DNA of 64,000 nucleotides from positions 59,930 through 123,929 of the forward strand of contig NW_023365750.1 in assembly GCF_000003815.2 (NCBI RefSeq), written 5' to 3'. The position numbers were made by a program, and so were the translations under genes. Of the stretch, positions 2,025 through 48,445 are shown in pieces; positions within the stretch are counted from its first letter, which is position 1; each line of letters opens with the position of its first letter. The notes under the pieces were generated by a model that was given only the letters and a program-made list of their open reading frames with translations, was not told the DNA's origin and searched no databases. Source of the stretch: Branchiostoma floridae. Its lineage: Eukaryota; Chordata; Leptocardii; Amphioxiformes; Branchiostomatidae.

Positions 2025-2133
2025 CTAATCGTTATGAATCCAAAAATCCAGGTAAGTCCGACCAGCACCATGACAGTGATGGCTATGCGAAGCTGTTGCT
2101 TGATCGCATATTTCCTTGGATCAGCAGCTTCCC
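2025..2133 (-). CDS. Gene B exon: transmembrane helix 6
   Basis: Encodes EAADPRKYAIKQQLRIAI followed by TVMVLVGLTWIFGF, the intracellular loop 3 and helix 6 of adhesion GPCRs (the LTW.FG motif is typical). The donor would be AG|GTGATT. Reading on would give an in-frame TGA two codons later. No TM7 exon is visible before the gap. Confidence 0.8.
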
Positions 2134-47500: not shown

Positions 47501-48445
47501 CTTCGCCTTCCTCATCTCCTTCCTGACTGACTTCATCCTCCTCCAACCGGTCAAAATCATTCTGATCATCATCTTCTTCAAGCTGGTTACCAAGGTCAGT
47601 TGATTCTTGACATAGCAATGTTTCAGACCGTTTTCTGTCTTAAGTAAAAAAAAAATTATCATGAATAAATTAAATGTCTATAATGCTGTCTACCTGAAAA
47701 ACATTACTATTAAAGACTACTATAGCCGCATATCCAGCTGTAGATAGCAATTTAATTAATTATTGTTTTTATCATTAATTGGCATGATGTGTGTATGTAA
47801 TATAATCTTTGGATAACAGTATTGTAATCAGGATACGCTACACTAACGTTACCGTCGCAAAGAAGAAAGAATATGACATAGGTAAATTACATGTAGAATG
47901 TATCCAAAATTTGTTATCTTTAATTATTGTGGTAAATATATGCGAAATTCTCTTCTTATTACTTGCTTTACTTTATATTCTAGACAATGTGATATTTGAA
48001 ATTGAACTTCATACTTGACTTATGTTTTTTTTTAATTGCAACATTACTGGAAAATTGGAGTGGGCTTTAAAGGTAACAGCTGATAGTTCTGTCAGAATAA
48101 CAGTTTAACATAAAAACGTCAGATAAACAAATCTATTATAAGACCTTCTAAATTCAGCTAATGCAGGACAACTAAGACTCAAAATCTTTACTCTTCCCAT
48201 TGCTGTAGCGCACACAAGACAGGGAGGCGTCTCAGCGATCCGGCACCGGAAGTGACGTCTACTACTCCTATCCCATGGAACCCTTGCCCGTACCTCCGCC
48301 TCCGGTCCAACCTAGCGGCCATTACCAGGGGCTGAGGCCAGCGGTGTACCAGAGTCTACAAAGGCACCAGCGTACAACACCCCAACCCCAGAACTCCACT
48401 GGAGATAGAAGCGCCTTCACTATCTCGCATAATTTTTTTAAGTAG
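29516..48445 (+). CDS. Gene C: VWA-EGF-CCP(x4)-EGF-REJ-GAIN polycystin-1-like receptor without channel (spliced span)
   Basis: Exons: signal 29516-29570, linker 30475-30501, VWA 31737-32312, EGF 32685-32798, CCPs 33694-33870, 34106-34297, 35291-35467 and 35686-35868, EGF-REJ 36167-36724, REJ 37222-39240, GAIN 39562-43444, GPS-TM1 43984-44202, TM2 44646-44936, TM3 45391-45643, loop 46034-46138, TM4-5 47407-47594, tail 48209-48445. The REJ-GPS-TM order and the FTRVQR and LPWW motifs identify the polycystin-1/REJ family, plasma-membrane or ciliary receptors. Two family parts are absent: the PLAT domain between TM1 and TM2, and everything after TM5. The gene ends in a short proline-rich cytoplasmic tail with a TAG stop. 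Confidence 0.85.
29971..30334. mobile_element. CAGGG-ended MITE, hAT-like
   Basis: Ends CAGGGCTCGAATTTC and TATTTCGAACCCTG form terminal inverted repeats. Interior rich in GTGCAGGTA/TACCTGCAC palindromes. CACAC flanks both sides, possibly part of a target duplication. Sits in the first intron of gene C. Confidence 0.7.
30475..30501 (+). CDS. Gene C linker mini-exon
   Basis: 27 nt, phase 1-1, reads GFCQIPPPL then Ser across the joints; donor AT|GTAAGT. Confidence 0.75.
30601..30755. repeat. (TG)n microsatellite
   Basis: Long imperfect TG array about 100 bp after the gene C mini-exon, the same relative place as the TG-strand array of gene A. Confidence 0.92.
31737..32312 (+). CDS. Gene C VWA domain
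   Basis: [16 protein letters not shown] start with MIDAS DxSx[10 protein letters not shown] Thr and [11 protein letters not shown]sp. Substitutions relative to the other copies include PDVLIVL, VILPAQLTRQMGIKVF and GEKSDVSQATLE. The full-length exon is open. Confidence 0.93.
32685..32798 (+). CDS. Gene C EGF module
   Basis: SKPCNPPCHADATCRLLVET then YTCKCNAGFVGNGFTCT. Six cysteines kept. One residue shorter than in A and B near the start. Confidence 0.88.
32955..33037 (+). pseudogene. Gene C CCP 1 relic
   Basis: Acceptor TTTTCAG and QCTDCTSRETV match the beginning of the first-CCP subtype with frameshifts. The frame then leaves the family and reaches TAG. The second half of the module is absent. 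Confidence 0.75.
33694..33870 (+). CDS. Gene C CCP (first intact)
   Basis: [20 protein letters not shown] start, VICNSGYDLDGVTPIRC core, SNPVGTC end. The downstream intron is homologous to that after gene D CCP 11. Confidence 0.9.
34106..34297 (+). CDS. Gene C CCP with shifted donor
   Basis: [20 protein letters not shown] start, YTCNTGYQLNGASPLTC core, SNPVPTC end. The family donor after ACA C is destroyed (CGCGGCC). The next GTAAGT lies 15 nt on, adding five residues and keeping phase 1. Confidence 0.85.
34471..34535 (+). pseudogene. CCP relic
   Basis: GACTATTTCCG where TTTCAG is expected (acceptor lost), then DTMTYVDDLN-type remains and a stop. Counterpart of the relic at 60572 in gene D. 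Confidence 0.65.
35291..35467 (+). CDS. Gene C CCP (third intact)
   Basis: [20 protein letters not shown] start, [17 protein letters not shown] core, GSWNNPTPTC end. The exon and about 110 bp of its 3' intron match gene D CCP 13. Confidence 0.9.
35686..35868 (+). CDS. Gene C CCP (fourth intact)
   Basis: [20 protein letters not shown] start, VVFTCDTGYVLNGAADTLC core, [10 protein letters not shown] end. The donor is moved 6 nt downstream (AAAAG|GTGACT) compared with the family, again in phase. Confidence 0.87.
36167..36724 (+). CDS. Gene C exon: calcium-type EGF and first REJ part
   Basis: Starts DHDECTGDTDVCPQGSTC (Ca-binding EGF start with Cys spacing to GCTYC). It continues into REJ sequence: YKWEFFPPSG, LLVPPRTLHYGLYLFRLTVT, GARRQVGVGEFTIDA and SDPDG. 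A membrane-distal REJ module typical of polycystin-1 proteins. An alternative acceptor at 36155 would add four residues in the same frame. Confidence 0.88.
37222..39240 (+). CDS. Gene C exons: remainder of REJ module (five exons)
   Basis: Exons 37222-37402, 37624-37855, about 38141-38332, 38538-38656 and 39118-39240. Readable pieces: MFTVEVSATNRISASASQVI; LRLSALCSNCRGDPNNYRYN; QYIVTSTVTDSNTGESGSA; GFSDPDLPLRYDFEY; LEIVIRVTDALGAFSV. Phases agree except at the 37855/38141 joint, where the acceptor is uncertain; using an acceptor just before CAGCAAGGCCAG keeps the frame. Confidence 0.75.
39562..43444 (+). CDS. Gene C exons: GAIN domain and first GPS half (eight exons)
   Basis: Exons 39562-39723, 40063-40188, 40657-40762, 40955-41046, 41376-41624, 41983-42198, 42550-42793 and 43308-43444. 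Segments: PPENIEELVEAVLDDVDVNN, RDRMMQILEQVQVQDVQQV, SLARSSCDGLGTRV, FTTTEPGVAFYIRVIPDVP and CLFFDESSSLWTDRGCE. Most joints are phase 0. The first exon has no GT donor in the right place. AAC|GCAAGG at 39724 keeps the frame and suggests a GC-AG intron. Confidence 0.82.
43984..44202 (+). CDS. Gene C exon: GPS cleavage motif and TM1
   Basis: CICDHLTAFAGFVAP completes the GPS with the HL/T cleavage site, then SLIALVTVCVVMALYIVAVF is TM1. Donor AGG|GTTTGA is weak. Reading through would put TGA two codons on and leave a one-helix protein. Confidence 0.9.
44646..44936 (+). CDS. Gene C exon: basic loop and TM2
   Basis: Begins with a very basic loop (REYRRQRKRENRVQQQR), then HLWISAVKPPSNHFTRVQRI and a helix CLCLLMSFMLVNIMF. 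FTRVQR is the polycystin signature just after PLAT, but the PLAT domain itself is not here nor in the 443-bp intron before it. Confidence 0.9.
45391..45643 (+). CDS. Gene C exon: TM3
   Basis: FIIGLESSLIALPINVIVVV is TM3 with the family pattern of helix and LPIN, followed by a charged cytosolic loop rich in Arg, Lys and His. Confidence 0.88.
46034..46138 (+). CDS. Gene C exon: TM3-TM4 loop
   Basis: ALKKSEDRHGVEKHGAKVAM then PYRPLPWWSVIV. LPWW is the conserved polycystin motif immediately before TM4. Phase 1 at both ends. Confidence 0.88.
46444..46526. repeat. Nested inverted repeat
   Basis: TTGTTCACGGA...TCCGTGAACAA outside and CTAGTCTC...GAGACTAG inside, 83 bp in all. A hairpin-forming sequence in a gene C intron. 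Confidence 0.8.
46672..47406 (+). repeat. Tandem copies of the TM4 exon start, five plus a partial
   Basis: Units of 122-136 bp with acceptor-bearing starts at 46769, 46899, 47022, 47149 and 47271, and a partial unit at 46672-46764. Each carries CCCTACAG plus the beginning of the TM4 exon and a shared intronic stretch TAGTTACATGTAACATATC. All five terminate in frame if read as a last exon. The genuine exon follows at 47407. Confidence 0.9.
47407..47594 (+). CDS. Gene C exon: TM4 and TM5
   Basis: AWFLVAAIVIVSGAFTVLYG is TM4; AWLFAFLISFLTDFILLQPV and KIILIIIFFKLVTK form TM5. Matches the polycystin segment W...S...D..L.QP.K. Only this last copy of the tandem series continues to a usable donor (AAG|GTCAGT). 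Confidence 0.88.
48209..48445 (+). CDS. Gene C last exon: proline-rich cytoplasmic tail
   Basis: RTQDREASQRSGTGSDVYYS, then PLPVPPPPVQPSGHYQG, ending SHNFFK and TAG. The start RTQD... follows TM5 in phase 0. No polycystin channel exons (the extracellular TOP loop or pore helices) are found before gene D begins. Confidence 0.8.
   Translation, partial: RTQDREASQRSGTGSDVYYSYPMEPLPVPPPPVQPSGHYQGLRPAVYQSLQRHQRTTPQPQNSTGDRSAFTISHNFFK

Follow-up and report, generated by a model that had tools for sequence, protein, structure and literature searches.

The stretch of DNA considered here (hereafter the window) comprises 64,000 nucleotides of Branchiostoma floridae contig NW_023365750.1, positions 59,930 to 123,929; the contig, designated C192 below, is 376,478 bp long. 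It is animal genomic DNA with introns and carries the same 5' unit at four places (m1 and m2 on the minus strand, p1 and p2 on the plus strand), each time composed of a signal exon, a mini-exon, a single-exon VWA domain, an EGF exon and then CCP exons. Two divergent genes, B on the minus strand and C (starting with p1) on the plus strand, appear to carry this unit as their head, and the start codons of m1 and C are 2977 bp apart. Exon models were built from open frames, splice-site scores and phase, and the joints in B and C are predicted ones. We consider it probable that one family of VWA-EGF-CCP heads, by way of phase-1 exon shuffling, fronts both an ADGRG/GPR128-like adhesion G protein-coupled receptor (GPCR) in B and, in C, a core of REJ, GAIN and transmembrane segments (TM) 1-5, devoid of PLAT and channel parts and followed by a tail exon. 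The arguments are the in-frame chains of phase 1-1 exons, the domain and structure matches, the paralogy of the heads, the recurrence of the arrangement and its conservation.

Gene models and domain composition

In the models gene B runs in frame and without a stop through 31 exons from 19575 down to 2025 (36 exons and 1994 amino acids when the m1 head is added), and gene C comprises 27 exons from 29516 to 48445, encoding 1764 amino acids followed by a stop (Table 1); every exon from the mini-exon to the last CCP is of phase 1-1 in both. The initial annotation, made from the sequence alone, had outlined the same two genes and had stated that their heads are paralogous, with one domain order, and that GAIN/GPS is the only related part of their bodies. 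The models agree with this: in blastp comparisons with the head of C, m2 is 64% identical over 474 positions and m1 79% over 316, and the only match between the two bodies below E = 3 falls in GAIN/GPS (28% over 93 positions, E = 0.005). The mini-exon, taken to be the same in both heads, is indeed present in both, but it is 27 bp long in m1 and C and 24 bp in m2. A domain search of the spliced model proteins, suggested there as a check, recovered VWA, Sushi, REJ, GPS, GAIN and 7tm_2, but not HRM, PLAT or PKD_channel.

As to the body of B, described at first as an Ig-SEA-HRM-GAIN adhesion GPCR, its GAIN, GPS and 7tm_2 parts were recovered: the 7tm_2 match (2.2e-38) covers profile positions 3-224 of 250, the GPS match (3e-16) reaches 60.1 bits at a cut-off of 22.5, and the GPR128 GAIN subdomains A and B are above cut-off. 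Canonical HRM (PF02793) has no Pfam match in the body, and the piece assigned to it matches GPR128_N (29.2 bits, cut-off 27.2); the SEA piece taken alone stays just under its cut-off (25.5 against 26.4 bits), Ig_3 is below its own, and the chain ends at TM6. The closest solved structures are ADGRG2 (1.5e-55) and ADGRG6 (5.5e-54), with ADGRF1 lower (6.7e-28). An ADGRF (GPR116-like) type for B was considered and rejected in view of these best structures and of the missing canonical HRM.

In gene C the Pfam matches of the head are VWA (2.2e-39), four Sushi and EGF_3, and those of the body are REJ (PF02010, 1.7e-67, 228 bits) and GPS (2.4e-7, 31.6 bits), EGF_CA being below cut-off; polycystin-1 from the PDB matches at TM2-3 and TM4-5 (2.5e-15). 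The description of C as a REJ-GAIN polycystin-1-like protein thus stands for REJ, GPS and TM1-5, but not for the PLAT and channel parts. PLAT gave no Pfam match in the protein, and no PLAT exon was seen in the 443 bp between the TM1 and TM2 exons; PKD_channel gave no Pfam match either, and the model ends after TM5 and the tail instead of having 11 TMs. A full polycystin was therefore rejected for C. Beside its TM4-5 exon, a 123-bp tandem array of 6.3 copies (46679-47480) repeats the first part of this exon together with the splice acceptor, and extra matches to the same part also lie beside the TM4-5 exon of the relatives on contig C3.

Table 1. Features of genes B, C and D and of heads m1 and m2, in window coordinates.
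Feature	Position	Strand	Basis or remark
m1 signal exon	26484..26538	-	exon model; ATG and GTAAGT donor intact
m1 mini-exon, 27 bp	25650..25676	-	exon model
m1 VWA exon, phase 1-1	24246..24821	-	exon model, VWA search
m1 EGF exon	23889..24005	-	exon model
m1 CCP exon	22777..22953	-	exon model
m2 signal exon, decayed	22441..22495	-	ATT replaces ATG; GTGTGT replaces GTAAGT donor
m2 mini-exon, 24 bp	20732..20755	-	exon model
m2 VWA exon (gene B)	19000..19575	-	exon model, VWA search
B EGF exon	18426..18542	-	exon model
B CCP exons, 11, all phase 1-1	12320..18270	-	exon model
B Ig domain, 2 exons	11154..11806	-	model; Pfam below cut-off
B SEA-like domain, 3 exons	9658..10963	-	model; Pfam just below cut-off
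B GPR128_N-like domain, 2 exons	8817..9171	-	Pfam match
B GAIN domain, 5 exons	6175..8410	-	Pfam match
B GPS exon with HL/T cleavage motif (CNHLTNFAV)	5485..5655	-	exon model, Pfam
B TM1-TM6	2025..5042	-	exon model, Pfam, PDB relatives
C signal exon	29516..29570	+	exon model
C mini-exon, 27 bp	30475..30501	+	exon model
C VWA exon	31737..32312	+	model, Pfam
C EGF exon	32685..32798	+	model, Pfam
C CCP exons, 4	33694..35868	+	model, Pfam
C calcium-binding-type EGF and first part of REJ, one exon	36167..36724	+	model, Pfam
C rest of REJ, 5 exons	37222..39240	+	model, Pfam
C GAIN-region exons	39562..43444	+	model, Pfam; GC-AG intron proposed after 39723
C GPS (HL/T) and TM1	43984..44202	+	model, Pfam
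C EHLW...FTRVQR exon and TM2	44646..44936	+	model, polycystin-1 match
C TM3 exon	45391..45643	+	model, polycystin-1 match
C TM4-5 exon	47407..47594	+	model, polycystin-1 match
C terminal tail exon, proline-rich, YQGL and YQSL	48209..48445	+	genome recurrence
D: signal, mini-exon, VWA (53135-53710), EGF, CCP array leaving the window	51432..64000	+	exon reading

Recurrence of the heads, bodies and tail in the genome

Searches were made in the Branchiostoma floridae assembly (513,431,437 bp in 431 contigs; one species), and all counts of heads, REJ copies, tails and GPCR relatives, being those among the matches listed, are lower bounds. Twenty VWA heads were listed at 67-99% identity, the next match having 48%; they are located on contigs C192 (11), C2 (5), C3 (3) and C198 (1), and collagen VI, VWF and integrin I domains are among the structures that score best with the VWA. 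Near the C2 heads (5.52M and 5.47M) two VWA exons are 47-48% identical to the head and possibly represent an older branch of the family.

First exons of REJ were listed at seven places (66-99% identity), and at two of them, apart from C itself, the order from head to REJ recurs, with VWA identity of 71-88%. At C192:186-199k it is complete (signal, mini-exon, VWA, EGF, CCP1-4, REJ); at C3:5.46M the VWA, three CCPs and REJ were found, and the signal, mini-exon and EGF were not found there. Upstream of one more REJ copy (C3:7.61M) lie eight complete CCPs and part of another, with no VWA listed. The exon joining EGF to REJ has its AG acceptor at the same phase-1 place in all seven copies, near each of which the GPS-TM1, TM2 and TM4-5 exons were found as well. 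PKD_channel was not among the matches listed near any of the seven (best 150 of 400 candidates), whereas 13 of 15 other REJ places, taken as controls because they match over at least 140 residues, have a listed channel match no more than 30 kb downstream (a single match serves two of them). On this comparison the loss of the channel looks like a property of the whole seven-copy REJ-GAIN subfamily. The same was supposed at first for PLAT, which was absent near the seven copies among the 84 matches listed (best 150 of 248 candidates); as only 2 of the 15 controls were positive, the search is too insensitive and says little on the six copies other than C, and the claim was withdrawn. A genome search with GPS (PF01825; best 150 of 195 candidates) listed B and its relatives but none of the REJ copies; an intron interrupts the GPS of C.

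The body of B has four close GPCR relatives (62-82% identity in the best exon), one on C18, two on C2 and one on C15. All 17 body exons from Ig1 to TM5 were found in the C18 paralogue (58-89% identity), and 15 of the 17 on C15, in a stretch that reaches from about Ig2 to a point before TM5. Upstream of its Ig1, C18 has, according to a gene-finder model, another Ig and a further cysteine-containing exon, and no CCP was found in 3.4 kb. Since the C18 relative has these exons in place of the head, B seems to be a GPCR in which the VWA-CCP head has taken the place of an earlier N-terminal part. Compared with C18, omega (the ratio of nonsynonymous to synonymous divergence) is 0.29 in the GPCR body and 0.16 in its TM part. 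The body exons on C18 and C15, together with the two recurrences of the head-REJ order, argue that the predicted architectures of B and C are more than a matter of chance.

The last exon of C, which has no Pfam match, was found at 16 places with at least 87% identity (one of them split in two), 11 on C192 and 5 on C3, mostly behind VWA-CCP heads. All nine listed plus-strand heads of C192 have a tail before the next head, and so do two of the three C3 heads (11 of 20 heads overall); none is listed for m1, m2, the five C2 heads or the C198 head, and for two of the C192 tails and three of the C3 tails no separate head is listed. Two further copies read YQEL and YQSL where C has YQGL and YQSL, the proline-rich stretch being kept. 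The tails of C and of its copy C192b match our hand-made tail query only from position 6 and thus lack the 5' part of the others. Since head and tail of C are both exons of the family, the polycystin core is enclosed on both sides by parts of this family. More distant relatives of the tail (50-67%) on C18, C6, C2 and C3:14.4M make the tail family wider than that of the heads.

Boundaries of the genes and alternative readings

The fusion in C is supported by the recurrence of the head-REJ order, by the fitting phase and by the spacer of 298 bp between CCP4 and the REJ exon (35868/36167), which holds no conserved start. For that in B, where CCP11 and Ig are 513 bp apart (12320/11806), the evidence is the unbroken chain of exons in frame and the presence of other predicted coding exons before the Ig homologue of C18. 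No terminal exon was recognised by eye in either spacer. As to independent starts, the ATG at 36118 was rejected for C because it is absent from C192b, and so was a signal-like frame at 34520-34601 (donor score 1.7), broken in C192b by a 4-base shift. When signal-like frames followed by a phase-1 donor were sought, B yielded two candidates besides this one in C, 22059-21954 (donor score 0.4) and 12093-12036 (0.0); the latter, the one weak frame of this kind in the spacer, was considered as a start of the B body and set aside for its weak donor and the lack of a counterpart in C18.

Several points speak against the two fusions, among them the very existence of the signal-like frames at 34520-34601 and 12093-12036. 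Only three of the seven REJ copies, C included, have a listed same-strand VWA head upstream; in the other two headed copies the distance from CCP to REJ is 3.9 and 2.5 kb, as against 298 bp in C, and upstream of another three of the seven, read for 1.5 kb only, no CCP was found. None of the four close GPCR relatives has a listed VWA head, and the fusion in B is a single case. A TM7 exon of B was not recognised below 2025, where no search with a TM7 model was made, and since B is without TM7 here and the m2 signal exon is dead, B could be a damaged gene. The tail of C may splice straight to CCP4. Finally, omega is high in the tail (0.46-0.57), amounts to 0.55 in REJ exons R2-R5 compared with C192b, and reaches 1.5 in CCP3 of C compared with C3a.

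We think it most likely that B starts at the m1 signal exon and would carry two VWA units. The signal exon of m2 lacks both ATG and donor, just as expected of the decayed relic that the initial annotation saw in it, and m1, which as a whole occupies 26538-22777 upstream of B on the same strand, has both; moreover, a tail exon was looked for behind m1 and not found, in contrast to the nine plus-strand heads mentioned above, and the joint from the m1 CCP to the second VWA stays in frame in the model. It is also possible, if somewhat unlikely, that m1 is a gene of its own for a short secreted VWA-EGF-CCP protein and that B begins elsewhere or not at all. The intact signal exon would suit such a gene, as would the state of its first and last CCPs (a damaged copy near 23.7 kb and a cut-off one near 22.58 kb); the missing tail and the in-frame joint argue against it, and so does the m2 VWA, which keeps an open frame with a median omega of 0.36 though its signal exon is dead. 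The 3' end of the VWA exon is present once more between VWA2 and EGF2 (18624-18919), as unequal crossing-over would leave. The facing signal exons of m1 and C, with their upstream sequence, are covered by an inverted repeat of about 1.1 kb with 70% identity (26094-27193 and 28877-29970), through which shared control of B and C is possible.

A further alternative concerns C: the polycystin core might have come to lie inside a simple VWA-CCP-tail gene that is alternatively spliced, joining CCP4 to the tail for a short receptor and CCP4 to REJ for a long one. The family exons on both sides of the core in C and C192b are in keeping with it. Considering, however, that the C and C192b tails are without the 5' part present in the simple members and that a transmembrane exon of the simple form was not seen, we regard such splicing as unlikely. 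That B is a dying gene or an assembly chimera we hold to be more improbable still. Here the unrecognised TM7, the decayed signal exon and the partial VWA copy at 18.8 kb are to be set against 31 modelled exons without a stop and the low omega of the TM part. Where TM7 would be expected, two pieces of eukaryotic small-subunit ribosomal RNA sequence (1060-1371 and 1558-1657, minus strand) lie beside a gap of 100 N, possibly the trace of a misjoin. Least probable of all is that the VWA-EGF-CCP exons form separate secreted or tail-bearing genes merely adjoining a GPCR and a REJ gene: many heads elsewhere are followed by a tail with no polycystin or GPCR matches between, and four of the seven REJ copies and all four GPCR relatives are without a listed head, but the spacers are short, the weak signal-like frames that might have served as starts are not conserved, the modelled REJ and Ig exons start in phase 1 and require a coding exon before them, and CCPs precede REJ in all four copies read beyond 1.5 kb (the other three have none within 1.5 kb).

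Divergence, possible function and related systems

The DNA identity of C and C192b is 75-76% around the signal and mini-exons, 82% in VWA-EGF and 87-92% from the intron before CCP1 to the REJ exons, and synonymous divergence is 0.31 in VWA, 0.23 in EGF, 0.15-0.20 in CCP1, CCP3 and CCP4 and 0.03-0.11 in R2-R5, so that it drops stepwise and not at one sharp point. Head and body of C appear to differ in their history, which is what recombination of VWA-EGF units among arrayed genes would lead one to expect.

The heads evolve under a median pairwise omega of 0.25 in the VWA (190 pairs), and R2-R5 show 0.25 compared with C3a; exons with gapped alignments, such as CCP2 and the large exon joining EGF to REJ, do not enter the values per body. 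A tree built from the 20 VWA exons resolves little (2 of its 17 inner branches are starred). Residues D12, S14, S16, T87 and D118, which from the VWA fold we take to form the metal ion-dependent adhesion site, show no variation across the 20 heads or are conserved in at least 90% of them. Amino-acid change is concentrated in residues 137-191, with a proportion of nonsynonymous differences (pN) of 0.18 against 0.07 in residues 1-136. The maximum ratio in a 15-codon window, 1.49, was reached by 1 in 1000 site shuffles; this test, made on 17 of the 20 heads after the most divergent (C192_258k, C2_5415k and C3a) had been dropped, is one of clustering and not of positive selection, and gene conversion could mimic such a cluster. 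The peak window, 145-159, corresponds to the loop after strand E and the next helix in a secondary structure predicted with low confidence (of the VWA model only the secondary structure was used, as its mean predicted local distance difference test score, pLDDT, is 56). In the general topology of VWA domains, loops leading from a strand to a helix share the side of the metal site, and the variable loop would be predicted to lie there.

HLT in the GPS is the canonical cleavage motif of the GAIN family; proline and tyrosine motifs like those of the tail can recruit SH3 and SH2 proteins. We suppose on these grounds that the movable head, consisting of the signal peptide, the mini-exon, one VWA, one EGF and several CCPs, would characterise an expanded family of putative receptors, in which the metal site of the VWA and the CCPs may bind the ligand. 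The GAIN domains of B and C could cleave themselves at HL/T, and ligand binding or pull might then release the fragment. In this case B would signal through a tethered agonist and G proteins, and C through its membrane fragment and the tail, which could recruit SH3 and, once phosphorylated, SH2 proteins, provided that it lies on the side of the membrane fit for this. More speculatively, diversifying arrayed heads might be exchanged by recombination among tail-only, REJ-GAIN-plus-tail and adhesion GPCR bodies, so that one class of ligands would be read through three routes, as in an immune or self-recognition repertoire. The lower identity of C and C192b from signal to EGF (75-82%, against 87-92% from CCP1 to REJ) and the clustering of change after strand E are consistent with this, but we hold it to be doubtful at present. 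For the immune or gamete-related role that the initial annotation thought possible, the nearest hints, both of them indirect, would be the tyrosine and proline motifs of the C-terminal tail and the clustered amino-acid change in the VWA.

Adhesion GPCRs and polycystin-1 share the GAIN module, yet they are studied as separate systems. The same ectodomain family feeding both would be a natural swap experiment, in which to ask if the readout by GAIN depends on the head and if exon shuffling can carry recognition from one signalling route to another. Attention is drawn as well to the REJ-GAIN subfamily, with seven copies and no channel part listed, and to the tail exon, which has paired YxxL motifs and accompanies the head.

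Among known proteins, SVEP1/polydom has VWA, EGF-like and CCP domains in the same order as the heads, but it is a large secreted matrix protein without a GAIN or TM body, such as B and C add. With the ADGRG/GPR128 group (ADGRG2 and ADGRG6 among its PDB relatives) B has in common the GAIN subdomains, the GPS with HL/T, a secretin-type TM bundle as far as TM6 and the SEA-like and GPR128_N-like domains, and differs from it in the VWA-EGF-CCP array in front. With the PKD1/REJ proteins, including the sea urchin SpREJ set, C has in common REJ, GPS, TM1 and the polycystin-1 stretch TM2-TM5, and differs in the VWA-EGF-CCP head, the shared tail exon, the lack of the PLAT and channel parts and the number of TMs (five). 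Lancelet adhesion GPCRs with many new N-terminal domains were described by Nordstrom et al. (2008; PMC2246102), whose main text contains none of the words CCP, sushi and von Willebrand. The SpREJs are reported to have from 1 to 11 TMs (PMC1934368), and five of the ten have PLAT. FrLRR (PMC10199209) is a fusion of a lancelet folate receptor with Slit2-N-like leucine-rich repeats, with a predicted glycosylphosphatidylinositol anchor; like B and C it is a lancelet receptor explained by exon shuffling, but it consists of other domains and is one fusion, whereas B and C would have a head common to two signalling bodies. In titles and abstracts, most subscription journals being outside the search, no published account of the pair was found. 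Lancelet exon shuffling and new N-termini of adhesion GPCRs are already known; a recombining head common to an adhesion GPCR and a REJ-GAIN protein would be a variation on such known kinds, the modular exchange of heads being its point of interest.

As for the neighbourhood of the two genes, a further member of the family, D (Table 1), leaves the window downstream of C, and a tail exon for it is found at C192:125440. The sequences 21693-22005 and 56341-56653 form an inverted pair with 88% identity and are probably a transposable element, and the minus-strand open frames at 49195-49609 resemble, as judged by eye, a fragment of reverse transcriptase.

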